Origin: Romanomermis culicivorax
Lineage: Eukaryota; Nematoda; Enoplea; Mermithida; Mermithidae
Assembly: GCA_963922205.1 (NCBI GenBank)
Contig: CAWUHX010000037.1
Coordinates: 1-64,000 of the forward strand
DNA length: 64,000 nt
Direction: 5' to 3'
The position numbers were made by a program, and so were the translations under genes. Position 1 is the first letter of the stretch. Each line of letters opens with the position of its first letter. The notes under the pieces are model-generated. The model did no database searches. It was not told where the DNA came from and was given only the letters and a program-made list of their open reading frames with translations. Below, piece after piece: positions 10,096 to 42,400 of this stretch.

Positions 10096-10998
10096 TGTAA
10101 CGACCAGATTTGTGTGAGGTACTTTACTTCTAACCAATTGGTCGATACGGCGGGGACAATAACGGGGCGGGGGCTCGGGCGAACGGTTACAATACAACAA
10201 CGGGTAATCGACGGTCGCTTGAACGTCGACAAATAAAAACGCGCTTCGATTTATAATACGAACGGGGGCCTCGGTTTAAGTTGCTTTCGAATAGTCGGCC
10301 GCTTGCAAATGTATAAAAAGGACGGGGTGAGCGCGGAAGTCAAAACGTAAAAACCACAAGAATAAGAAATGATCAAAATCACGCTTTGCTTCTTCTTTTA
10401 TACAGCGATTTTGGCCACTCCCTGGGCGTTGCGGGAGGTCGAGCTTCTGTCCATCTTCTTCCGCCAATCGTTGTTTCCTGCTACGCTTTTTATGCTTACT
10501 TGGTTACGCCTCTCTAACGCTTTTCTGGTACCGTATGCTTTCTGTGCTTCCCTTGCTTTCTACGGTGGGCTTGGCCACACCTTTGTGCTTCTGTGCATGC
10601 TTCCTGTATCGGTTTCTCTGTATACACATGTTTTGTGGGGCCGCCGCTACTGTTACACTTGAGACTACTGTACGGTGGGGCTTCTACGTATTTTACTGTG
10701 TGCAGGTGTTGTTTACGATTTTTATGGGGGATTACAGTAGCTGTGGAATGTGTAGTTTAGTGTAGGTTCTAGGGGAACAGCTGCCGTTTGTGCAAATTAA
10801 TTAGGGCATCTTAATTGGGCTACCGGGGTGTGAACGGATCAAAATAAAGTACTTCACGTAATTTTGTAGGAATGTTTGGGTGTGAATCCCAGACACCCTT
10901 GAGACGATAAAATGTGAAAATAAAAATAATATCTAATAAATGTCTATTACATACAGTATGCTACATATTTACAGTACTGCTTTAGCAGGTACGTTACA
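10096..10998 (-). repeat. 3' LTR of element 1
   Basis: 903 bp, TGTAACG...CGTTACA. Nearly identical to 18482-19377 except for a patch at about 10137-10205, where the two LTRs differ in sequence and length. Confidence 0.9.
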
Positions 10999-11011
10999 TT
11001 TCCCTCCTTCC
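10999..11011 (-). promoter_or_regulatory. polypurine tract of element 1
   Basis: On the minus strand GGAAGGAGGGAAA directly abuts the 3' LTR, where plus-strand DNA priming is expected. The same 13 bases abut the LTR of element 2 (37581-37593). Confidence 0.8.
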
Positions 11012-11029
11012 GGAGTTGAAAGTCCTCGT

Positions 11030-14000
11030 TCAAGGCTTTCGAGGTTGAGGAGGGGTGGGGGTAGATTTGATAGTTGCTTTCCGAGGGTAGAAAGGGGTTG
11101 TCTCGTTTACATGCACCATAAATGTAATATTCTTATGGGGGTGTTTAAGTGTAACGTTGGGGTACATGAAATTTGTAACTGTATAGGGTCCGTTTTGGCG
11201 AGGGAGGAATTTGGGAGTCAACCCTTGTTTACACGAATGATTTTTGTAGAGAATAAGATCACCTGCCTTGTAATGTATGTTCTGAGCATGCTTGTTATAC
11301 TGACGGGTATAGTGGTCCTGGGCTTTTTGTAAACTTTTCTGCACGGTTGAGAGTGCTTCTGTAAAATGTGATTTTACACGAAGGGCGTAATCGTCTAAAT
11401 CAACCATGTAGGACGTGGGGAAAAAATTTAAAGCTGCATCTGACGGCAGATTAGCTTGCCTAGCGTGGAGTAATTCAAATGGGGGATACGAAGTGCTATC
11501 ATTTTTATGAATGTTGATCGAAAAAACAGCATATGGGAGATAAGTATCCCAATCGGTGTGGTTTGAATTGATGTACATGCGGATACGGGTGGCTAAGGTT
11601 TGGTTGCAACGCTCAACTTCCCCATTGGCAATGGGATGATATGGGTTGGTATGAATTTTCTGAGTATTGCATAAACTGGTGATGCGTGAGAAGAGATCGG
11701 ATACGAAATCGGAGCCACGATCACAATGGATGATTTTTGGGGACCCATGACGGCAAACAATTTTGGTTACGAATAGCTTGGCAATAGTGGCTGCAGTGAT
11801 GTCAGGGGTCGGGAATGCCTCTACATACTTTGTGAAATAATCGATGAAAACGACAATGAATCGGTTGCCGTCTTCTGTGAGGGGTAACGGTCCCATGCAA
11901 TCAACACCGACTCTATCAAATGGGCCAGTCGGCTGAATTGGTACCAAATTTGCATGTACTTTGTGCCTAAGAGCTTTCTGTGTCTGGCATGGGTGACAAG
12001 TTTTGCAGTAACATTTGATATCACGGCTCATTTGGGGCCAAAAATATTTCTGTCTGAGCAAGTGTAAAGTTTTCTGGGCCGCAAAATGACCTGTGAACTT
12101 GCTGTCATGATGTGAGGCAATGAGGTGCTGGACCTGTGATTTGGGGATGTATAGTTTTGCCTGTTTGTCGACTATACGGAAGAGAATGTTTTGATGCACT
12201 GCGAATTTGATCAGAGTAAGGGGGTGTTTTTGGGCGATTTTTGCTAAAATACTTTTGACAGTTGGGTCAGTGCATTGGAGTTCGGCAAAATTTTTCTGTT
12301 GCTCTTCCTGTTCAGTTGCTTCAGCTTCCAAAACCGAATTGATAGTGGATATTTCGGGGCGGGTTTCTAATTGCTCAATATCAAAGGATGGCTTTGCTGT
12401 CTGTGAGGGGAATCGAGAAACTGCATCTGCGTTGCGGTTAGCAGTGCCTTTCTTGGGTCGAATGTCTAACTGGATACCAGAGAGGGCTAATCCCCAACAG
12501 GCAATGCGAGGGGACGGGTTTTCCTTTTGTAAGACTGCCTGAACTGCTGTGTGGTCAGTGTGTACAATAACATGTTGCTGGAAAAGATAGGGGCGGAAAT
12601 ACTTGACAAACTCAACTACTGCAAGGGTTTCCAACTCAGTTATCGGGTAGTTGCGTTCTGCGGGCTTCAATGTGCGGCTCCGAAAAGCAATGGGGCGATC
12701 CTGACCTTTACTATCTAGCTGACTGAGAATGGCGCCGATTCCGAGTTTTGAGGCGTCAGTTTGCAGAATAAACGGTTTTGTGAAATCGGGATGCTGCAGT
12801 ATTGGGGCATGGATGAGTAAGTCTTTGAGCTTAGTGAATGCGTTTTGCTGTTCGGGGCCCCAGGAAAATTCGGAATTCTTTTTGAGTAGTGATGTGAGTG
12901 GGCTAGATACTTGAGAGCAATTTGGGATGAATCTGCAATAATACGAGGGTAGGCCAAGGAATGACTTAACTTCTTTTGAGCTTTTGGGCGTGGGTATGTC
13001 ATAAATGGCCTGTACCTTATGGGGATCTGGTGAAATGCCTTGCTGAGAAATGACGTGGCCTAAGTATTGGACTCGGGGTTGGCAGAATTTGCATTTTTGT
13101 ATATTTAGCTTAATGCCTGCTTGTGAGAATCGGGCACGAATAGTGTCTAAACGTTCCAGCATTTGGGCATGGGAGTCTGCGAATACTAAAACATCGTCGA
13201 GATATACAAGGCATGTGTTCCATTGGAGACCCGAAAGAATAACATCCATCAATCTTTGGAATGTGGCTGGGGCATTGGTGAGTCCAAAGGGGAGGTAGTT
13301 GAATTGATACTGGCCGGCTGAGCAATTAAAGGCCGTTTTTTCTCTGTCTGCTTGTGCTATGGGAATGGAATAGTTTGCATTGGATTGGTCAAGGGACGTA
13401 AAATATTTCATTCCACGGAGGGTGTCTAGAACTTCGTCTATACGGGGCAAGGGGTAGGTATCTTTTTTGGTGACTTTGTTGAGGCCTCTAAAATCAATGC
13501 ATAAACGATGGCCTCCGTCTTTTTTGGGGACTAAAACTGTATTGGTACACCATGGAGAATTGCTTTGGCTTATGACACCTGCTGCTGCGAGTTGCTCAAC
13601 TTCTGCTTGTATGATTTGCTTTTCTTTTGGGGAAGTCCGATAAAGTTGTCTACGTACAGGTTGGGAGCCATTGGTGTCAATTGCATGTGAAACAAGGGTG
13701 GTTCTACCTACATCCATTTTGGATTTAGCATATAATGTAGGATACTTCGATAGGGCGCGTAGGAGTTGCATTTTCTCGGTTTCTGTGAGGTCACTGGAGG
13801 TTAAATTGACATTTTCTTTTAACCATGTGAATGTATCAAAACGGTTGGGCTGGTTTTGCGTGGAAGGGGTCTTGTTAGGGGAAGCATTTTGTTTTGGGAT
13901 GTAACATGAGACTGTACCAATGCATGTTCCAGGGTAAAGAATTTGTGCTGTTTCTTGTGTGTTCAGGACGGATATGCGTATGCGACTGTTTTGATTTTCC

Positions 14001-15520
14001 GAGATACAAGCCCCGAAATGGACTTTGGGATTCTGCTTGGGTTTCGGAGTGAATTCGAGCTGTTGAACTTGTAGGTACGATTTCGGCAAGGGGACAGTAA
14101 ATTCGGTTACTGTACGGGGTGGTAATTCTAATTTCTCGTCTAAATAAGTTCCACCACGAGTTGAAAGAGGGCTATATTCTAGGCCGTCACAGGGTAATAT
14201 GACATTGCCAAATTTGACCTGAGATTTTTGATTGTTGATAGTGTATTCCGAAAATCGACTGAGAAAGTTTTTGCCTAGAAGGATGTCTGCTGTGCAATCT
14301 TTTTGGACATGAACCATTATTGTTTCCTGGATTGTTTGGGCTGTCACTGTGACAAAAGTGGTCCCTACAAAGTGTATCGGAAGGTTATTTGCTGCTTTTG
14401 CTTGGACTAGCGGGGGTTTCATGTCTAACTGTAGGATTTGAGCGATTCGGGAATCAATGAGTGAGTAAACTGCACCAGTGTCTATCATGCCTTTTGTCAT
14501 TAATTTGCCCTTAAGTGTGATTGGAATATGAGGGGTATGTTTCTCAGGTAAATTTTGGGGTGGCTTATTTGATGCAGATTGGTGAAATTGATTAATGAGT
14601 TCGATTGCAGGAGTTCGGGGGGTATCAATATCGACAAGGACGTATTTCTGCTGTGTTTGTGCCCCAGGACGATTAGCTAATTCTAAAAGGGCATGGCGGA
14701 ATGATGGGGAAATGGTCTCATGTAAATGTCTGTTGTTTGATGGTATTTGGTATGCATGTTCAGTTGCAGCATGGTGCTTTGGAGAGGGGAAATATTTTCG
14801 GAGAACGAGAAAAGAATAAAAGACGCCTGCAATAACTACAGTAATAACGGCGAGATTTATAATGATTTGCAGGGGTCCTTTGAGTAAATTGTTTAATCCG
14901 TCCGTGAGACTTTGGGTGGTACCGGTAATTACATGTTCTATGCCTTGACCGGCACCAGAGAGGGTATTTCCGAGTGCTTGGCCAGTGCCTGAGATCATGT
15001 TGTAAACTGTATCCGAATTGAGAGACATTTGGGCGGTGTAATTGACGAGTTTTTTGACAACGTTTTCCAGTGTGTGAGTTTTGTAAATGTATTGTTTCAA
15101 AAAGAGTAAGTTGGTTGAAATAGTTGCAAGTTGATCATGAAAAATAGCGGGTGTATTAAAATGGAAAAGGGAGAAATTTTGGTTCCAGACGATTTCTAAC
15201 GGTAAATTTGTGACATGCGGGGATCCTGTTTCACTGACCCATGTATTATTCTGTTTGTAAAGGGCTACATGCACGTGATGGCAGTCAACGGTTTGTGAGA
15301 AAGGGGTCAAATCGTTGCCTCCTGGATTCGAAAACATGAGTTCGGTTCCTATGAGAATGGGTAAAAGTTTGTAGCATGTTTGGTTGATTTTGTGGTTGTA
15401 AAAGACTATGGATGCGTTTACCTGCTTGCAGGGCCAGACTGTGAGGGCTTCTCCTGTGAATTCTGCTATTATGTCGGTTCTCTGTAAAAATGCACGCGCT
15501 CCAAGGGTTGCATCAAGACG
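11030..15520 (-). CDS. pol: element 1 ORF3: envelope C-terminal part, membrane anchor, protease, RT, RNase H, integrase
   Basis: The frame is open from the codon after TAA 15523-15521; the first ATG is at 15337 (1435 aa from there). Counting from that ATG, residues 1-150 are Cys- and NxT-containing glycoprotein sequence with a Gly/Thr-rich stretch (110-150). Residues about 155-178 form a hydrophobic membrane segment followed by basic LRKYF. The aspartic protease has DTGA at 286-289. RT spans about 570-770 with YLDD at 712-715. RNase H is about 850-975 (TDAS at 860-863). Integrase has its HHCC region at about 1070-1117 and the DDE triad at about D1146, D1206 and E1242 (NGEVERCN). The terminal stop is at 11030. 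A membrane anchor directly upstream of the protease on one chain is unusual. An upstream stop makes full expression depend on readthrough, or this copy is damaged. Confidence 0.9.
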   Translation of the reverse strand, partial: RLDATLGARAFLQRTDIIAEFTGEALTVWPCKQVNASIVFYNHKINQTCYKLLPILIGTELMFSNPGGNDLTPFSQTVDCHHVHVALYKQNNTWVSETGSPHVTNLPLEIVWNQNFSLFHFNTPAIFHDQLATISTNLLFLKQYIYKTHTLENVVKKLVNYTAQMSLNSDTVYNMISGTGQALGNTLSGAGQGIEHVITGTTQSLTDGLNNLLKGPLQIIINLAVITVVIAGVFYSFLVLRKYFPSPKHHAATEHAYQIPSNNRHLHETISPSFRHALLELANRPGAQTQQKYVLVDIDTPRTPAIELINQFHQSASNKPPQNLPEKHTPHIPITLKGKLMTKGMIDTGAVYSLIDSRIAQILQLDMKPPLVQAKAANNLPIHFVGTTFVTVTAQTIQETIMVHVQKDCTADILLGKNFLSRFSEYTINNQKSQVKFGNVILPCDGLEYSPLSTRGGTYLDEKLELPPRTVTEFTVPLPKSYLQVQQLEFTPKPKQNPKVHFGACISENQNSRIRISVLNTQETAQILYPGTCIGTVSCYIPKQNASPNKTPSTQNQPNRFDTFTWLKENVNLTSSDLTETEKMQLLRALSKYPTLYAKSKMDVGRTTLVSHAIDTNGSQPVRRQLYRTSPKEKQIIQAEVEQLAAAGVISQSNSPWCTNTVLVPKKDGGHRLCIDFRGLNKVTKKDTYPLPRIDEVLDTLRGMKYFTSLDQSNANYSIPIAQADREKTAFNCSAGQYQFNYLPFGLTNAPATFQRLMDVILSGLQWNTCLVYLDDVLVFADSHAQMLERLDTIRARFSQAGIKLNIQKCKFCQPRVQYLGHVISQQGISPDPHKVQAIYDIPTPKSSKEVKSFLGLPSYYCRFIPNCSQVSSPLTSLLKKNSEFSWGPEQQNAFTKLKDLLIHAPILQHPDFTKPFILQTDASKLGIGAILSQLDSKGQDRPIAFRSRTLKPAERNYPITELETLAVVEFVKYFRPYLFQQHVIVHTDHTAVQAVLQKENPSPRIACWGLALSGIQLDIRPKKGTANRNADAVSRFPSQTAKPSFDIEQLETRPEISTINSVLEAEATEQEEQQKNFAELQCTDPTVKSILAKIAQKHPLTLIKFAVHQNILFRIVDKQAKLYIPKSQVQHLIASHHDSKFTGHFAAQKTLHLLRQKYFWPQMSRDIKCYCKTCHPCQTQKALRHKVHANLVPIQPTGPFDRVGVDCMGPLPLTEDGNRFIVVFIDYFTKYVEAFPTPDITAATIAKLFVTKIVCRHGSPKIIHCDRGSDFVSDLFSRITSLCNTQKIHTNPYHPIANGEVERCNQTLATRIRMYINSNHTDWDTYLPYAVFSINIHKNDSTSYPPFELLHARQANLPSDAALNFFPTSYMVDLDDYALRVKSHFTEALSTVQKSLQKAQDHYTRQYNKHAQNIHYKAGDLILYKNHSCKQGLTPKFLPRQNGPYTVTNFMYPNVTLKHPHKNITFMVHVNETTPFYPRKATIKSTPTPPQPRKP

Positions 15521-17590
15521 TTAGATTTGCCATACAAGATCAAGGTGACGCTGTGCCTGTCTGCATAATTCACTCCATACGTTTTTGAAATTTTGAATTT
15601 CGAATTCCTGTATTTTGTCTGCTAGATAGTTTAGTTTCGCATTAATGGGTTCAAAATCATCAAAATCGTATAGTATAGTATGAGTTTCGTTGGTTTTTGG
15701 GGTTAAAAATGCATTACGATGTGGGGTGCTTTTGTCTAATTGTACGATAATGCCTTGTTTGGTTAGAATGTTGTCTTGAATTTCTGGGCAATTAGGGTTC
15801 GAAAAAACTGTATTTTTAACCGAGAATGCACCTTGTAGCTCTTCTATTATCATGTGTGTTTGCGTGAGTTTGATGGGATGTGTATTTTTGTATTCGAAAG
15901 GGCATAAGTTTTCAAATGCTGTTTCATTCCAGATAATAGATCCGTCGGCTGTTACACAATGACCTGATGTCTGTTTGCATGACCCTAGGTCGCCTAATCT
16001 ACCTGTCATAAATTTTCCATTCCAAGATGCTATTTGTCCTATTTCTATGATGACGTTAGTGACTGAGGTACAATGGTCTGTACAACACCATGTGTATTCT
16101 ACGCTTAGGGAGTTATTTGTTGACCAAAATCCTGGTTGGGTTTCGTATAATTTTTGACAGTTGTGTTCTTTGTCTATAACGATTGCCTTACAAACATGTG
16201 GGGTTAGATTTTGCATTTCGGTTTGGTCGAAGACAATACCTTTTGAGCCAAAAAATCCTGTATTAGTACAAATTTTGCGTTTGCGAACACTGCATTTGTA
16301 TGCGTCTGTAATGTGGGGCTTAGTGGAGGGGATATAGATTTTTCCGAATGTCTGTACGGGTTTGTCTACTGTGGAAGGGGGCATGCATGATACAAGTTTT
16401 GGTATGCTGACTGAGTGACCGCTCAATGAAGTTCCACACATCTGAAATTGGGCACTACACGATGTGGGGATTATTATACAAAGAAAGATACAAAACATCG
16501 GCCAATAGAATGTTTTAGTGGAGGCGGCGGGGCACTGTATGTTTTCGTTGTGGCCGGTTTGGTGTTGTTCGGTTTTGGGTTGAGGGGGTGGCCGGTTTGC
16601 AATCTGAACATTCTGTAAAAGTTTGGAATTTGAGTTATGGGATGGGGTTTGGACTTGCTTACTTGCGGGGGTCGGTAGCAATGTTTGGCGGGGGCAGAAT
16701 TGGTAGGGTTCAGGGGTCAGGCTGTGTAAGAGGGACAATAAGTTGCGACCTGTTTTCGATGGGGTTTCGGGGGCGGTGGGTGGCGTAGTGTCTTGTTTTT
16801 GGGGGATCTTGTAGCCTACGGGGATGGTGGGCGGCGATTTTTTGATTTTTGCGGCTTCAGGCATGGGGGGTTGTGACATGGCGCACCAATCGGGTACGTC
16901 CAGATCAAGGACGTATTCGTCACTACGGCGGTGGGTGTTGGGCATGATAGTTCCTAAAGTAGTCTGAGGGCCGTTAGTTATGGCGGGTAATTTTGAGTAA
17001 AATGCAGGATCCTCAATGTCCATGAGGGGTTGGGGTTGCCTGTACTCAATGCAGTTTTGAATATTACGACTTTGCTGATTTGGACAATACCTGCTTGTAT
17101 GACCTCTCTGCTTGCATAGAAAACATTGAAAATTGGAGTAGGGTTTTGAAAGGCAGTTATCTGATCTATGTCCTGTTTGGGAGCAGTGGATGCATCGGCT
17201 TTTACAATCACGTATACTGTGATTACTACGGAAACAGATTTCACATGATTTTCGGGTAACTACTGATTTACAATTACGAGCTACGTGTCCAATTTGTCCA
17301 CACTGGAAGCATGTGGGTTGCCTAGGGGTGGTATTGTTCCTGTAAGCATTATTCCTACTGTAAGTGTTGTTACTGAAATTGTTGTAGCTACTTTGTTGTG
17401 GGGGTTGGGGTTTTTGTTTGATCTGCAATTGTAAATCTTTTACTTGTTGTTCTAACTGATGCAAAAGATCCTGTTGGTCTGTATTTTTGGTGAGGGAAAA
17501 GATGGGTTTGGGTTTTGGGGGTATAGAGGGAAGGGCGTTAGATTTTAACTCATTTCTAAGGATTTGCTGTTCATTGTAAGCTGCTTCATC
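15521..17590 (-). CDS. element 1 ORF2: four CCHC zinc knuckles fused to envelope-like glycoprotein (N-terminal part)
   Basis: This stretch is in the same frame as the preceding gag ORF and begins right after its TAA. Counted from the codon at 17464, residues 52-128 carry four CCHC-type knuckles (CFQCGQIGHVARNC, CEICFRSNHSIRDC, CIHCSQTGHRSDNC, CFLCKQRGHTSRYC), typical of nucleocapsid. A Pro-rich linker follows (about 140-315). A hydrophobic stretch at about 319-337 ending SCSA looks like an internal signal peptide. A Cys-rich ectodomain with several NxT/S sites continues to the TAA at 15523-15521 and resumes in the same frame beyond it. The order suggests an env-like surface protein; its fusion class cannot be assigned by eye. 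Alternatively this is a non-envelope secreted domain captured by the element. Confidence 0.8.
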   Translation of the reverse strand, partial: DEAAYNEQQILRNELKSNALPSIPPKPKPIFSLTKNTDQQDLLHQLEQQVKDLQLQIKQKPQPPQQSSYNNFSNNTYSRNNAYRNNTTPRQPTCFQCGQIGHVARNCKSVVTRKSCEICFRSNHSIRDCKSRCIHCSQTGHRSDNCLSKPYSNFQCFLCKQRGHTSRYCPNQQSRNIQNCIEYRQPQPLMDIEDPAFYSKLPAITNGPQTTLGTIMPNTHRRSDEYVLDLDVPDWCAMSQPPMPEAAKIKKSPPTIPVGYKIPQKQDTTPPTAPETPSKTGRNLLSLLHSLTPEPYQFCPRQTLLPTPASKQVQTPSHNSNSKLLQNVQIANRPPPQPKTEQHQTGHNENIQCPAASTKTFYWPMFCIFLCIIIPTSCSAQFQMCGTSLSGHSVSIPKLVSCMPPSTVDKPVQTFGKIYIPSTKPHITDAYKCSVRKRKICTNTGFFGSKGIVFDQTEMQNLTPHVCKAIVIDKEHNCQKLYETQPGFWSTNNSLSVEYTWCCTDHCTSVTNVIIEIGQIASWNGKFMTGRLGDLGSCKQTSGHCVTADGSIIWNETAFENLCPFEYKNTHPIKLTQTHMIIEELQGAFSVKNTVFSNPNCPEIQDNILTKQGIIVQLDKSTPHRNAFLTPKTNETHTILYDFDDFEPINAKLNYLADKIQEFEIQNFKNVWSELCRQAQRHLDLVWQI

Positions 17591-18628
17591 TTACATTTCT
17601 TTTAAAGTTGGGAACCGTCTATACTTAATTGCTTCCCTGATTTCGTTTTGCATGCCTTCTACAAAGAGGGTTTTTATGATCATTTCTCGTGCGTCTGTGT
17701 TAAAGTTAGGGTAGGCGAGGGTTGCGAGATGTTCTAGATCAAAAAAGAATTCTGTTACTGTTTCTGAACGCTTTTGTTTTCTTTTGCGTAAGAATTGTTG
17801 ATGTAGCTCATTATCTCTATTGTTTGGGAAAAATGCCTGTAATGCGACTTTATACTGCTCGTATGTGTGGGGAGGGTTTTCGGAATTTGCTAAACTTTTG
17901 AACTTTGCTAAGGCGGCTCCTCCTAAATGAATTTCTAAACATGCCAACTTTAACTGTACGTCTGTATCTTTCATGCCTTGGAGTGCCATGAATTGTTCTA
18001 ATCTTTTGTTCCATTCACCAAAATGTTGGGTCACGCCGCCCGTGAATACTGTAGGTTTCGCGTAGAAATTATTTGCCATGTTATTACGAATGTTTGCTGT
18101 TCTGAGATCGTCTATTAGGGTAGGGTTTACTGTATTCTGATTCAATTGTGTGCGTAGGGTACGAAAATGTTCTGAAAATAAATCGTTTATCTGCTCTCTA
18201 ACGATTTCTCCTAAATGATCTTGCATTTGGTGGGTCATTCTTGGTTTGCGTTGGGATTTCTGCTTAAATGCTTCAATTTTTGCTTCACGCTGTATTCGTT
18301 TAAATGTATCGCTTAATGTCTCGTTGGAGGGGATTTCCAGTTTGCTTTCTATGAATACTGTCTTTCTGTAGGAAATGATTACTACTGTATTATCTAATGC
18401 TTCTAAATGCCCGGATAAGAGTACACCTAATTGGGGGCAGGGAGTTCCACTGGTTAATGTAACGGTACGGTCACCAAAATATGTAACGACCAGATTTGTG
18501 TGAGGTACTTTACTTCTAACCAATCGGTCGATACCGCAGGGACAATGGGACGGGCGGTACAAATACGGGGCGATAATATACGAACGATCGACGGTCGCTT
18601 GAACGTCGACAATAAAAACGCGCTTCAA
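17591..18628 (-). CDS. gag: element 1 ORF1: Gag-like
   Basis: A Retrotrans_gag-type helical domain spans about residues 205-335 of this frame: WNKRLEQFM, LACLEIHLGGAALAKF, PPHTYEQYKVALQAFF and FFFDLEHLATLAYP are typical blocks. The open frame runs back through the primer-binding site into the 5' LTR with no ATG there. The first in-frame ATG is at 18238, which would give a 215-residue product. The ORF ends at TAA 17593-17591; the next codons continue in the same frame into the zinc knuckles. Either a non-AUG start is used upstream or translation starts at 18238. Confidence 0.8.
   Translation of the reverse strand: MKRVFIVDVQATVDRSYIIAPYLYRPSHCPCGIDRLVRSKVPHTNLVVTYFGDRTVTLTSGTPCPQLGVLLSGHLEALDNTVVIISYRKTVFIESKLEIPSNETLSDTFKRIQREAKIEAFKQKSQRKPRMTHQMQDHLGEIVREQINDLFSEHFRTLRTQLNQNTVNPTLIDDLRTANIRNNMANNFYAKPTVFTGGVTQHFGEWNKRLEQFMALQGMKDTDVQLKLACLEIHLGGAALAKFKSLANSENPPHTYEQYKVALQAFFPNNRDNELHQQFLRKRKQKRSETVTEFFFDLEHLATLAYPNFNTDAREMIIKTLFVEGMQNEIREAIKYRRFPTLKEM
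18459..18476 (-). promoter_or_regulatory. candidate primer-binding site of element 1
   Basis: Minus strand TGGTGACCGTACCGTTAC begins five bases inside the 5' LTR boundary and starts with TGG, as needed to pair with a tRNA 3'-CCA end. The tRNA species was not identified. Confidence 0.6.
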
Positions 18629-19377
18629 TTTATAATACGAACGGGGGCCTCGGTTTAAGTTGCTTTCGGATAGTCGGCCGCTTGCAAATGTATAAAAAGG
18701 ACGGGGTGAGCGCGGAAGTCAAAACGTAAAAACCACAAGAATAAGAAATGATCAAAATCACGCTTTGCTTCTTCTTTTATACAGCGATTTTGGCCACTCC
18801 CTGGGCGTTGCGGGAGGTCGAGCTTCTGTCCATCTTCTTCCGCCAATCGTTGTTTCCTGCTACGCTTTTTATGCTTACTTGGTTACGCCTCTCTAACGCT
18901 TTTCTGGTACCGTATGCTTTCTGTGCTTCCCTTGCTTTCTACGGTGGGCTTGGCCACACCTTTGTGCTTCTGTGCATGCTTCCTGTATCGGTTTCTCTGT
19001 ATACACATGTTTTGTGGGGCCGCCGCTACCGTTACACTTGAGACTACTGTACGGCGGGGCTTCTACGTATTTTACTGTGTGCAGGTGTTGTTTACGATTT
19101 TTACGGGGGATTACGGTAGCTGTGGAATGTGTAGTTTAGTGTAGGTTCTAGGGGAACAGCTGCCGTTTGTGCAAATTAATTGGGGCATCTTAATTGGGCT
19201 ACCGGGGTGTGAACGGATCAAAATAACGTACTTCACGTAATTTTGTAGGAATGTTTGGGTGTGAATCCCAGACACCCTTGAGATGATAAAATGTGAAAAT
19301 AAAAATAATATCTAATAAATGTCTATTACATACAGTATGCTACACATTTACAGTACTGCTTTAGCAGGTACGTTACA
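18482..19377 (-). repeat. 5' LTR of element 1
   Basis: 896 bp, TGTAACG...CGTTACA, matching 10096-10998. Sense (minus) TATTATAAAT lies near 18632-18644. The opposite strand has TATAAAAAG at 18691-18699, a 97-codon ORF from ATG 18748, and AATAAA signals near 19299-19320, so the LTR could be transcribed both ways. Confidence 0.85.
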
Positions 19378-20093: not shown

Positions 20094-20917
20094 GCTTTTT
20101 GGCCAACTGATTTGGAAGTTGTGACGTTTGAAGACAAAAGTGAGTACTGTGCAATAAATTTTTCATGCTATGTTTTTTGCAATGATGCTATAATATCAGT
20201 TGTTAATTACACGAACATTTGCCAACAACCCCAATTTGTTGGTGAATGTCGCGCCCTGAAGCGACAATGGTATTTCAACAAAAATACTGGATTTTGCGAA
20301 CAATTCAATTTTGGAGGTTGTGATGCAAATGACAACAATTTTTTGCACTTGGAAGAATGCCAACGAGTGTGCGAAGACAATAAACGTGAGAAGTATGATG
20401 GTTTGCATACTCATATCTTAATCCTCGAATATATTAAATTTAGCATGCAACGAAAAGCCAGAAAAAGTTCCAGGTCATTACAAGAAGACCATGCGAGAAA
20501 ATAAAAGAGGTTGTCCAGTTTACAAGGTTACAACTGATACCAGTAAGCTAAAATCCGGATAGTTGATCTAATTTAGCATGTTAAATGTTTTAGAACGAAC
20601 GTTCATAGTGTATGAAGGTGTTACTATAACATTCAATTGTAATGTCACAACACGCGAAGAAAGATCTGTCCACGAAGTTCATCACGAAAGATGCGCCGAA
20701 TTATGCAAATACAAATTAAGGTAGAAAAATAATCAAATTGATGTCAATCAGTCATCCGCCGACTTTTCCATCTAGTTGCAACACTTTCGTTTGGTCCGTA
20801 AAATCTGGCCACCCTGTTTGCCGTTTGTTGAACGTGAAAAGTATTCAAGATTTGAGAAAAGATAGCGTTATTGCCCCAGAAGGCGTATGCGGAGTTTTCT
20901 TCGACAAAATAAAATGA
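20094..20917 (+). CDS. Kunitz (BPTI) domain protein with PAN-like C-terminal region, 5' end not found
   Basis: Five phase-consistent exons: 20094-20139, 20200-20385, 20444-20542, 20594-20720 and 20752-20917, giving 207 residues up to TGA. Exon 2 carries a full Kunitz domain with Cys spacing 8-15-7-12-3 (ICQQPQFVGECRAL, NKNTGFCEQFNFGGC, CQRVC). The residue after the second Cys is Arg, which in this family sets the P1 specificity to trypsin-like proteases. Exons 4-5 contain CAELCKYKL, then SSCNTFVWSVKSGHPVCRLL, a Cys pattern like PAN/apple modules. An NYT glycosylation site precedes the Kunitz domain. No signal peptide exon was found, so the start is missing. Segments at 21083-21154 and 21267-21376 look like related Cys-containing exons but do not join in phase. 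Confidence 0.75.
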
Positions 20918-36683: not shown

Positions 36684-37580
36684 TGTAACGACCAGTTTGG
36701 AGAAGTACTTTACTTTATCCTAAAAACGGACGGTGGTGAAACAGCACGGGTTACGGGCGAGGACGATACAAAAATGATAATCGACGGGGGCTGGGTCGTC
36801 GACAATGAATAATGGGGGACAATGCGTGTTCCGCTTGCAAATAATAAAAACGGACTCGGTTTAACTGCTTTCGCATAAAAAAAAGACACGGCGCTTGCAA
36901 ATAGGACGAATTCAAAAACTAAATTCGATACGAACACAAACTAACTAAATCATGCTTTGTTTCTCTTTAAATACGGCGTTTTTGGCCACTCCCTGGGCGT
37001 CGCGGGAGGTCTTGCTTCTGTCCATCTTCTTCCCCCAATCGCCGCTTCCTGCTTCGTTATTCTCGCTAATTTGGTCAGGCCCTCTAATGCTTTCCTGGTA
37101 CTGTATGCTTTTTGTGTCTTCCCTATGCTTGATTCCTACGGCGGGCTTAGCCACACCTCTGTGCTTCTGTGCATGCTTTCTGTATCTATTTTTCTGTGTA
37201 CACATGTTTTGTGGGACCATTGCTACCATCCTAGTTGAGACTACTGTCTGGCGGGGCTTTTACTTTTTACTGTGTACAGGTGTTGTTTACAATTTTTATG
37301 AGGAATTACGGTAGCCGTGGAATGTGTATTTTAGTGTAGGTTCTAGGGGACCAGCTGCCGTTGTGCAAATTAATTGGGGCGTCTTAATTGGGTCAATAGG
37401 GGCTACCAGGGTGTGGAAGGATCAAAATAAAGTACTCCACATAATTTTACAGGAATGTTTGGGTGTGAATCCTAGGCACCCTTGAGACGATAAATTACGA
37501 AAATGAAATAATATTCAATAAATGACTATCACATACAGTATGCTATATATTTACAGTACTGCGTTAGCAGGTACGTTACA
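36684..37580 (-). repeat. 3' LTR of element 2
   Basis: 897 bp, TGTAACG...CGTTACA, complete. Similar in layout to the element 1 LTR but clearly diverged, mainly in the first 250 bp. Confidence 0.85.
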
Positions 37581-37593
37581 TTTCCCTCCTTCC
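37581..37593 (-). promoter_or_regulatory. polypurine tract of element 2
   Basis: Minus strand GGAAGGAGGGAAA next to the 3' LTR, identical to that of element 1. Confidence 0.75.
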
Positions 37594-37799
37594 GAAGTTG
37601 AACATCCTCGTTCAAGGGTTTCGAGGGTGAGAAGGGATGGGGGCGGTTTTGATAGTTGCTTGTCGAGGGTAGAAAGAGGTTGTCTCGTTTACATGTACCG
37701 TAAAAGTGATATTCTTATGGGGGTGTTTGAGTGTAACATTGGGGTACATGAAATTTGTAACTGTATAAGGTCCGTTTTGGCGAGGGAGGAATTTGGGAG

Positions 37800-40564
37800 T
37801 CAGCCATTGTTTGCACGAATGATTTTTGTAGAGAATGAGATCACCCGCCTTGTAATGGATGTTCTGAGCATGCTTGTTATACTGAAGGGTATAGTGATCT
37901 TGGGCTTTTGCAAATTTTTCTGCACTGTTGAGAGTGCTTCTGTAAAGTGAGATTTTACATGATGGACATAATCGTCCAGATCAATCATGTAGGACATGGG
38001 GAAAAAATTTAAAGCTGCGTCTGATGGGAGGTTAGCTTGCCGACCATGGAGTAATTCGAACGGGGGATATGAAGTGCTATCATTCTTATGAATATTAACC
38101 GAAAAAACAGCAAAGGGTAGATAAGTATCCCAATCAGTGTGATTTGAATTGATGTACATGCGGATACGGGTGGCTAGGGTCTGGTTACAACGCTCAACTT
38201 CTCCATTGGCAATGGGATGGTATGGGGTTGTGTGAATATTTTGAGTATTGCATAAACTAGTGATCCGTGAAAAAAGATCAGACATGAAATTGGAGCCACG
38301 ATCACAATCGATGATTTTGGGGTAGCCATGAAGGCAAACAATCTTGTTTACGAATAATTTGGCGATAGTGGCTGCAGTGATGTCAGGGGTCGGAAATGCC
38401 TCCACATACTTGGTGAAATAATCAATGAAGACAACAATGAATTGGTTGCCATCTTCAGTGAGGGGAAAGGGCCCCATGCAATCAACACCGACTCTGTCAA
38501 ATGGGGCTGTCGGCTGAATTGGGACCAGATTTCCATGTATTTTGTGCCGGAGGGCTTTTTGTGTCTGGCATGGATGGCAGATTTTGCAATAACGTTTGAT
38601 ATCACGGCTCACCTGGGGCCAAAAATATTTTTCCCGGAGCAAGTGTAGGGTTTTCCGGGAAGCAAAATGACTTGTGAACTTGCTGTCATGATGTGACGCG
38701 ATGAGATCCTGTATTTGTGATTTGGGTATGTATAGTTTTGCCTGCTTGTTAATTACGCAAAAGAGGATGTTGTGATACACCGCAAATTTGGCCATTGTAA
38801 GGGGGTGTTTTTTGGCGATTTTTGCCAAGATATTTTTGACAGTTGCATCAGTGCATTGGAGTTCAGCAAAATTTTTCTGTTGTTCTCCTTGTTCAGTTGC
38901 TTCAGCTTCCAGAACAGAATTAATGGCTGATATCTCAGGACGGGTTTCTAGTTGCTCAATTTCAAAGGATTGCTTGGCTGTTTCTGAGGGAAAATGAGAA
39001 ATGGCATCTGCCTTGCAGTTAGCAATGCCTTTCTTAGGTCGGACGTCTAGCTGAATACCAGAGAGGGCTAGTCCCCAACGGGCAATGCGAGGGGAAGGGT
39101 TTTCTTTCTGCAAGACTGCCTGAACTGCAGTATGGTCTATGTGGACAATAACATGCTGCTGGAAAAGATAGGGGTGGAAATACTTGATAAACTCAACTAG
39201 GGCAAGGGTTTCCAACTCAGTTATTGGGTAGTTGCGTTCTGGGGGTTTCAATGTGCGGCTCCCAAAGGCGATGGGGCGATCATGACCTTTACTGTCTATT
39301 TGGCTTAGAATGGCGCCAATTCCAAGTTTTGAGACGTCAGTTTGCAAAATGAATGGCTTTGTGAAATCGGGATGTTGCGGGATTGGGGCATGAATTAGAA
39401 GCTCTTTGAGTTTAGTGAATGCATTTTGTTGTTCAGGCCCCCAGGAAAATTCCGAGTTCTTTTTGAGTAAGGCTGTGAGGGGGCTAGAAATTTGGGAGCA
39501 ATTTGGGATGAATCTGCGATAATAAGAGGGTAGGCCAAGGAATGACTTAACTTCTTTGGAGCTTTTGGGTGTGGGTATGTCGTAAATTGACTGTACCTTA
39601 TTGAGGTCTGGTGAAATGCCTTGCTGAGAAATGACGTAGCCTAGGTATTGGACTTGGGGTTGGCAAAATTTGCTTTTTTGGATGTTGAGTTTGAGGCCTG
39701 CTTTAGAGAAACGAGTGAGAATATTGTCTAAACGTTCTAGCATTTGGGCATGGGATTCCGCAAAAACTAAAACATCATCAAGATAGGCAAGGCATGTGTT
39801 CCATTGCAATTCTGAAAGGATGACATCCATTAATCTTTGGAATGTGGCTGGGGCGTTGGTGAGACCAAAGGGGAGGTAGTTAAACTGATATTGCCCGGCT
39901 GAGCAATTAAAGGCAGTTTTTTCTCTGTCTGCTTCTGCAATTGGAATGGAATAGTAGGCATTTGATTGGTCAAGAGACGTAAAATATTTCATTCCATGCA
40001 GGGCGTCTAGAATTTCGTCTATGCAGGGCAAGGGATATGTATCTTTTTTTGTGACTTTATTGAGGCCCCTAAAGTCAATGCATAAACGATGGCCACCATC
40101 TTTTTTGGGGACTAAAACTGTGTTGGTGCACCATAGAGAATTGCTCTGGCTTCTGACACCTGCTGCTGCGAGTTGCTCAACTTCTGCTTGTATGATTTAC
40201 TTTTCCTTTGGGGAAGTCCCAAAAAGGTGTCTACGTACGGGTTGGGAGCCATTGGTGTCAATGGTATGTGAAACAAGGGTGGTTCTACCTACGTCCATTT
40301 TGGATTTAGCATATAACGTGGGATACTTTGATAGGGCGCATAGGAGTTGGGTTTTTTCTGCTTCTGTGAGGTCACTGGAGGTTAAGTTAATGTTTTCTTT
40401 TAACCAGGTGAATGTATCAAAACAGCTTGGCTGGTTTTGTGTCGAGGGGGTTAGTTTAGCGGGAGAGTATTGTTTTGGGATGTAACAGGAGACTGTACCG
40501 ATGCATGTTCCAGGGTAAAGAGTTTGGACCGTGTCTTGTGTGTTTAAAACTGAGATGCGTATGC
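37800..40564 (-). pseudogene. pol: element 2 pol remnant: RT, RNase H, integrase
   Basis: A 743-codon open stretch (40031-37800) matches element 1 pol closely: RT with YLDD, RNase H, and integrase with NGEVERCNQ. Upstream, the same frame continues to the LTR junction but is broken by TAA at 40199-40197, where element 1 has Gln. Near the 3' end the frame shifts: the last about 35 residues differ from element 1, and the original tail sequence continues in another frame down to about 37610. The copy is therefore not able to give a complete polyprotein. Confidence 0.85.
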
Positions 40565-41451
40565 GAAAAATGGACGGTGGTGAAACGGTCTAAAAATGGA
40601 CAGTGGTGAAAGGGCACAGGTTACGGGGCGAGGACGATACAAAAATGATAATCAATGGCGGCTGGGTCGTCGACAACGAATAATGGGGGACAACGCGTGT
40701 TTGGCTTGCAAATAATAAAAACGGACTCGGTTTAACTACTTTCGTATAAAAAAAAGACGCGGCGCTTGCAAATAGGACGGATTCTAAAACTAAATTCGAT
40801 ACGAACACGAACTAACTAAATCATGCTTTGTTTCTCTTTAAATACGGCGTTTTTGGCCACTCCCTGGGCGTCGCGGGAGGTCTTGCTTCTGTCCATCTTC
40901 TTCCGCCAATCGCCGCTTCCTGCTTTGTTATTCTCGCTAATTTGGTCACACCCTCCAATGCTTTCCTGGTACTGTATGCTTTTCGTGTCTTCCCTATGCT
41001 TGATTCCTACGGTGGGCTTAGCCGCACCTCTGTGCTTCTGTGCATGCTTTCTGTATCTATTTCTCTGTGTACACATGTTTTGTGGGACCATCGCTACCGT
41101 CCTACTTGAGACTACTGTCTGGCGGGGCTTTTACTTTTTACTGTGTGCAGGTGTTGTTTACGATTTTTATGAGGAATTACGGTAGCCATGGAATGTGTAT
41201 TTTAGTGTAGGTTCTAGGGGACCAGCTGCCATTGTGCAAATTAATTGGGGTGTCTCAATTGGGTCAATAGCGGCTACCGGGGTGTGGAAGGATCAAAATA
41301 AAGTACTTCACATAATTTTACAGGAATGTTTGGGTGTGAATCCCAGACACCCTTGAGAGGATAAATTACGAAAATGAAATAATATTTAATAAATGACTAT
41401 CACATACAGTATGCTATATATTTACAGTACTGTGTTAGCAGGTACGTTACA
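40565..41451 (-). repeat. 5' LTR of element 2 (truncated at its inner end)
   Basis: Matches 36684-37580 but lacks the terminal TGTAACGACCAGTTTGG part. The inner edge carries a doubled GGACGGTGGTGAAA-like segment. Confidence 0.8.
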
Positions 41452-42199: not shown

Positions 42200-42400
42200 A
42201 TTTTGTATGCCCAAATCCACGTGACTGGTGCATCAGAAAAAGAACACTTAGGGAGAGGCTCAAACCCTCGACCTTGTGCATGCAAGGCAGATGTGCTACC
42301 CTCTGCACTAACCAAGACACGTGTATGGTTCGGAAATTGTGCTTATAGTAGTGGTGAATGTGGGACATGCTGCTTGATGAAAATGCACCAGTACAACACT
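42200..42400 (-). repeat. tRNA-derived SINE-like element, copy 2
   Basis: Minus strand TTGGTTAGTGCAGAGGGTAG (A box) and AAGGTCGAGGGTTTGAGCC (B box), with the same flanking text as copy 1 (CATGCCCAAATCCACGTG on plus). Arranged in tandem with copy 1 in the same orientation. Confidence 0.6.

Follow-up and report, generated by a model that had tools for sequence, protein, structure and literature searches.

According to the Metaviridae profile of the International Committee on Taxonomy of Viruses (ICTV), the envelope protein (Env) of env-bearing Metaviridae is encoded downstream of integrase (PMC7879559); this and the other statements given here with a citation are drawn from titles, abstract openings and passages of the cited papers. 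Type III fusion glycoproteins were reported in gypsy elements, with coordinates in the order GAG, POL, ENV in both An. stephensi and T. carbonaria, and a T. oceanicus ENV fragment ahead of GAG lies in cluster insertions that were not established as one element (PMC13172572). Metazoan envelope-carrying gypsy elements were described by Chary & Hayashi 2025 (as cited in PMC13172572, PMC12992720 and PMC12859917). In Roo, Tas and Cer7 the glycoprotein lies downstream of the polyprotein (PMC7642597), and a survey reported no clear evidence for capture of a Jingchuvirales glycoprotein by Gypsy or Copia elements (PMC10084718). We analysed a stretch of 64,000 nucleotides from Romanomermis culicivorax (contig CAWUHX010000037.1, positions 1 to 64,000; the window), which carries on its minus strand a Ty3/gypsy-type retroelement with a predicted class III glycoprotein placed between the nucleocapsid and the protease. 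The same order was found in other copies in this genome and in diverged relatives.

The element extends from one long terminal repeat (LTR) to the other over positions 19377-10096. In 5' to 3' order it encodes a capsid, four CCHC zinc knuckles, a proline-rich linker, a signal-like segment, a cysteine-rich ectodomain, a membrane anchor, protease (PR), reverse transcriptase (RT), RNase H (RH) and integrase (IN), and the integrase stop (11032-11030) is followed by 18 nt, the polypurine tract and the 3' LTR. Capsid through integrase lie in a common single frame, interrupted in the window copy by two in-frame stops. A preliminary description, made from the sequence without database searches, had placed the ectodomain and anchor between the knuckles and the protease and the integrase stop about 18 nt from the polypurine tract; the order was borne out on the minus strand by profiles, hydropathy and the single frame, and the distance is 18 nt. 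Its interval of 11030..18628 holds the gag-env-pol block, but the element reaches beyond it to both LTRs (10096-19377), and as a coding unit the element keeps one frame throughout without being one intact open reading frame (ORF; stops at 17593-17591 and 15523-15521). The features are:

18482..19377, minus strand: 5' LTR, 896 nt, TGTAAC...GTTACA, 96.0% identity with the 3' LTR
18459..18476, minus strand: putative primer binding site, starting TGGTGACC five bases past the LTR, read by eye
17594..18238, minus strand: capsid region of Gag, taken from the open frame's first ATG; PF03732 match in open frame 17594-18628
17591..17593, minus strand: in-frame stop private to the window copy, missing from 20/20 alignable window-like copies
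17084..17311, minus strand: four CCHC zinc knuckles (nucleocapsid), starting at 17311, 17245, 17194 and 17125, by the zf-CCHC profile
16451..16522, minus strand: signal-peptide-like hydrophobic segment, by hydropathy
15524..16450, minus strand: envelope ectodomain, N-terminal part, by identity to seven diverged polyproteins
15521..15523, minus strand: in-frame stop private to the window copy, missing from 23/23 alignable window-like copies
14867..15520, minus strand: envelope ectodomain, C-terminal part, PF24664 (Monjiviricetes_fusion), E=2.9e-12
14810..14866, minus strand: membrane anchor, mean hydropathy 2.4
14255..14521, minus strand: aspartic protease, DTG at 14482; PF13975, 33.1 bits (cut-off 28.2)
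13049..13531, minus strand: reverse transcriptase, PF00078
12479..12787, minus strand: RNase H, PF17917
11633..12148, minus strand: integrase, H2C2 zinc binding and core, PF17921 and PF00665
10999..11011, minus strand: polypurine tract, 18 nt past the integrase stop (11030-11032), read from the sequence
10096..10998, minus strand: 3' LTR, 903 nt, TGTAAC...GTTACA, paired with the 5' LTR

The LTRs, the polypurine tract and the PR-RT-RH-IN order of pol are those of Metaviridae (Ty3/gypsy), and a gag of capsid (26.2 bits, cut-off 24.1) and CCHC nucleocapsid (37.2 bits, cut-off 20.8) is present. The position of Env departs from that of env-bearing Metaviridae, being between the knuckles and the protease with only 18 nt from the integrase stop to the polypurine tract, and the gag-pro-pol-env order of Retroviridae was found neither in the window nor in the 40 loci described below. 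LTR dating covered two elements of the window; the LTRs of this one differ at 36/896 aligned sites (Kimura two-parameter distance, K2P, 0.042), which means that this copy is not especially young. That the two stops are bypassed by programmed read-through was considered and rejected because neither is carried by any alignable window-like copy (0/20 and 0/23, near-identical copies being taken separately).

By profile search and predicted model, the glycoprotein between the knuckles and the protease is glycoprotein B (gB)/Monjiviricetes-like and of class III. The C-terminal ectodomain piece matched PF24664 at 45.8 bits, over the cut-off of 27 for this class III sequence family, and 8/9 env rows matched at E up to 1. 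The N-terminal ectodomain is 30-40% identical over 314-378 aa to P0008, P0010, P0024, P0031, P0058 and P0088, and over 166 aa to P0005, all of them diverged polyproteins described below. The predicted model has a gB-like fold with the long central helix of class III fusion proteins, and all 50 PDB matches listed in the fold comparison were gB. The preliminary description had proposed comparing the fold with class I, II and III fusion proteins, and the outcome was class III and gB-like, on a weak AlphaFold2 (AF2) model.

The same genome (359 Mb, 595 contigs) was scanned with PF24664, yielding 68 scored places from 2320 first-look candidates, 68/68 over the cut-off; no such place was found in 14 control genomes. 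The best-scoring 40 of the 68 were examined, each with flanks of ~2.9 kb (upstream) and 2.6 kb (downstream) around the match. Capsid, knuckles, envelope, protease and RT lay in line in 34/40 loci, the other six being without one or more of these parts. The N part of the envelope preceded the C part in 40/40. Capsid was upstream of the envelope in 38 loci (no match in L010 and L039) and knuckles in 38 (none in L027 and L039); protease was downstream in 39, with short matches in L014 and L044, and RT in 37 (none in L014, L044 and L045, the last being a cut stretch also without PR). RT was upstream of the envelope in 0/40. Signal-like segments were present in 37 loci and anchors in 34, and a single open frame ran from the first knuckle into RT in nine loci and from ectodomain to protease in 15.

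These loci sort by identity into five groups, a division of our own: 23 window-like, 10 L017-like, 3 L013-like, 3 L016-like, and L009. Knuckles, env and protease stay in a common frame between groups that share only 34-64% envelope residue identity. Ratios of nonsynonymous to synonymous divergence (dN/dS) in the window-like loci (n=23), taken from 162 to 249 non-independent pairs (>150 codons, dS >0.02, stops skipped), were 0.157 (capsid, CA), 0.172 and 0.139 (the two envelope parts) and 0.159 (RT), which indicates roughly equal constraint on the envelope and the enzymes. Six L017-like copies (L017-L021 and L026) are 99.2-99.7% identical over ~6 kb, and the group has thus probably moved recently. 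Separately, L045-L047 (G000:C180, places 404, 8769 and 17134) were observed at an exact spacing of 8365 bp and 99.95-100% identity, either because the element is arrayed in tandem or through an artefact of the assembly.

In a protein search with the pol region, 5161/7973 scored candidates passed 1e-30, and the best 120 relatives were examined. Seven of these, from public contigs (P0005, P0008, P0010, P0024, P0031, P0058 and P0088), combine PF24664 and RT in one protein. P0010, P0024, P0031, P0058 and P0088 (2293-2604 aa) show knuckle, hydrophobic segment, PF24664, anchor, DTG and RT in a single frame; the P0005 and P0008 sequences begin within env. A contrast set of 32 matches with knuckle, DTG and RT motif in line was drawn by a strict pattern, which missed P0010, and 26 of the 32 have <=150 residues from knuckle to DTG and no hydrophobic segment between. 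Nothing was returned at E<=1e-3 from the same database by the ORF holding the knuckles and N-terminal envelope, or by residues 1-255 of the second ORF; relatives are present in that database, where the pol region finds them, and length limits and the word screen may explain the empty searches. The viral_contigs scans and the genome_contigs scan gave no relatives. In the P0058 and P0088 envelopes, basic RNIR and RKIR motifs were noted in a variable loop that precedes the central helix of the prediction and are not obvious in the window copy. The furin site of gB lies in a variable loop before the central helix.

The env-bearers cluster in a 76-row RT tree, built without a named errantivirus reference (4 changes against a shuffled mean of 16.2, with 0/500 shuffles as low), a result that near-copies favour. 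Trees of the C-terminal envelope and of RT for the same 18 rows share a well-supported split of 12 vs 6 rows and the pairs P0058/P0088, P0008/P0010 and L013/L025; both place the group L009-L012-L017 beside window-like copies, and no well-supported fork is in conflict. The simplest reading of these sequences would be one old envelope gain followed by vertical inheritance. P0002 and P0038 have no PF24664, yet carry a pair of hydrophobic segments in the interval from knuckles to DTG, with a start-to-start spacing of 61 residues in P0002 and 44-55 residues in P0038. P0002 falls within a well-supported 14-row RT clade; P0038, a long branch, adjoins P0058/P0088 with 86% support, and its position is uncertain. 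If these two single-contig sequences are real elements and not deletions, loss of the ectodomain kept an even number of membrane crossings, which we offer only as a lead.

The order, the single frame, the homology, the conservation and the equal constraint show a Ty3/gypsy (Metaviridae-like) lineage with a class III gB/Monjiviricetes-type glycoprotein as an in-frame domain inside Gag-Pol, and we regard it as fairly probable that the whole is made as a single Gag-Env-Pol chain with two membrane crossings. Genomic RNA would be translated as one chain, and the signal sequence past the nucleocapsid would start translocation mid-chain. The ectodomain, with its putative fusion activity, would enter the lumen of the endoplasmic reticulum and the anchor would stop transfer, leaving Gag and protease-RT-integrase both cytosolic and tied to the same membrane. 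Particles would assemble on that membrane, where protease activated by crowding would free Gag and Pol from the envelope. The suggestion in the preliminary description that a protease tethered beside a membrane helix would alter polyprotein sorting and cutting is a reasonable hypothesis. A single chain is favoured because no start codon beside the signal is conserved in the 12 sequences compared and because the frame is kept on both sides. We lean slightly against, while giving nearly equal weight to, the broader proposal of a separate long-lived Metaviridae branch in which the gag-pol-env plan was replaced by a double-spanning Gag-Env-Pol whose topology places capsid and replicase on one membrane face. 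If it is true, P0002 and P0038 would be natural deletion experiments, and the two crossings, not the fusogen, would be the indispensable part.

Several observations weigh against the single double-spanning chain. The window copy is itself broken by two stops, and 31/40 loci, these being the best-scoring of 68, are not open from knuckles to RT. The N-terminal ectodomain piece of the window copy alone gave no credible Pfam match. The AF2 ectodomain model is weak (mean predicted local distance difference test score, pLDDT, 65; predicted template modelling score, pTM, 0.38), its TM-scores to gB are ~0.3, and the root mean square deviation of the VIA fold matches is at least 19 A in 39/50 rows and 7.4-11.7 A in the remaining 11. 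A free quick RT tree separates P0058/P0088 from the other env-bearers; a tree constrained to hold the env-bearers together with P0002, P0038 and P0004 had a likelihood higher by 11.7 and was not rejected (approximately unbiased, AU, p 0.772). The ectodomain is not needed by every member, as P0002 and P0038 are without it. A 1:1:1 Gag:Env:Pol ratio would be unusual for Ortervirales and needs explaining, and Env could be produced separately through splicing. In errantiviruses env RNAs are usually spliced, and the chief alternative, unlikely in our estimate though to be taken seriously, is that the architecture is the same but Env(-Pol) comes from spliced RNA as in gypsy errantiviruses, with most Gag synthesized free of Env and the shared frame no more than a convenience. 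The lack of a conserved start is compatible with this, since a spliced RNA needs no start codon beside the signal, and passages on errantiviruses locate env starts either inside gag or in an exon that precedes it, a pattern we read as splicing (PMC12992720). A spliced env, however, need not stay in frame with gag, and the frame from knuckles through env to protease has been kept between groups at the envelope identities given above; Env would moreover still be fused to protease unless cut.

The block may instead now be mainly a membrane tether for Gag-Pol, its ectodomain dispensable, and the two segments joined by only a short loop in P0002 and P0038 fit such a role. We think this improbable: dN/dS of the ectodomain equals that of RT and CA, the cysteines and gB-like core are retained in other family members, and the two relatives, one contig each, may be deletions, with P0038 insecurely placed. 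The two stops and a neighbouring element without the block could suggest a secondary insertion, an assembly chimera or a chance open frame in the window copy, an explanation to which we give almost no weight. It is refuted by the same position across loci on many contigs, with none contradicting the order, by the seven diverged proteins, by congruent trees and by purifying selection. The preliminary description had named copies without the block, or an insertion in this copy only, as the outcome that would overturn it; this was examined and was not what the loci, the relatives and the agreement of envelope and RT trees gave, and its proposed order proved conserved.

That neighbouring element lies at 36684..41451 (minus strand), belongs to the same family and retains RT-IN. 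Everything between its 5' LTR and RT was deleted, and because this internal deletion took gag, env and protease, the element neither supports nor opposes the gene order. It has 4-bp flanking repeats AACT (by eye) and an LTR K2P of 0.047 over 752 sites. Elsewhere in the window, a Kunitz/BPTI domain is encoded in an open frame at 20115-20504 (plus strand; PF00014, E=6.4e-17), in keeping with an animal host, and a tRNA-Ala-like gene lies at 42244-42319 (minus strand), with a similar stretch ~200 bp on (by eye) that is possibly a tRNA-derived repeat.

The preliminary description was right, by the ICTV profile (PMC7879559), that env follows pol in known Metaviridae, and the conserved placement of an envelope within the polyprotein of this lineage goes against that rule. 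Its suggestion of novelty holds in part: no description of a gag-env-pol order was found in the titles, abstract openings and passages searched, a body of literature lying outside Chary & Hayashi 2025, which by our guess has a minor but real chance of already describing it. Class III envelopes in gypsy elements are already known; it is the order for which no earlier report was found in the literature covered. The architecture suggests that a Gag-Pol spanning the membrane can be tolerated by an Ortervirales element and that the internal envelope goes with unusual particle building on membranes, and it raises testable questions of protease activation, Gag:Env:Pol ratio and assembly site. Annotation that seeks env after integrase will miss such elements.

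Among known systems, insect errantiviruses (gypsy, ZAM) and metazoan envelope-carrying gypsy elements resemble this element in LTRs, gag, PR, RT, RH, IN and an envelope of a viral fusion class. Env-bearing Metaviridae in the ICTV profile differ in that their Env follows integrase (PMC7879559), whereas here it lies in one frame between nucleocapsid and protease. Anakin, as described in passages on BEL/Pao elements, is likewise an LTR element that captured a chuvirus-type, gB-like glycoprotein, but it belongs to the Pao family and not to Ty3/gypsy (PMC7642597). Cer1 of C. elegans is a Ty3/gypsy element with one long ORF; CERV, its additional product, contains the C-terminal portion of the polyprotein, localizes to the nucleus and acts in RNA export, and the word transmembrane is absent from the text (PMC10309623, PMC3315495). 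A Cer1-type explanation was rejected on that account, the extra protein of Cer1 being C-terminal and nuclear. The glycoproteins of herpesviruses (gB) and Monjiviricetes (chuvirus, nyamivirus, bornavirus) belong, as judged from profiles and the model, to the same class III family with the same fold, and differ in being free genes and not a domain within a replicase polyprotein. The Env of foamy viruses, too, is a separate gene after pol. Its type II leader has a cytosolic end that meets Gag, and budding is Env-dependent and occurs partly at internal membranes, according to passages on these viruses (PMC7828637). This leader is the nearest known logic for the topology proposed here.
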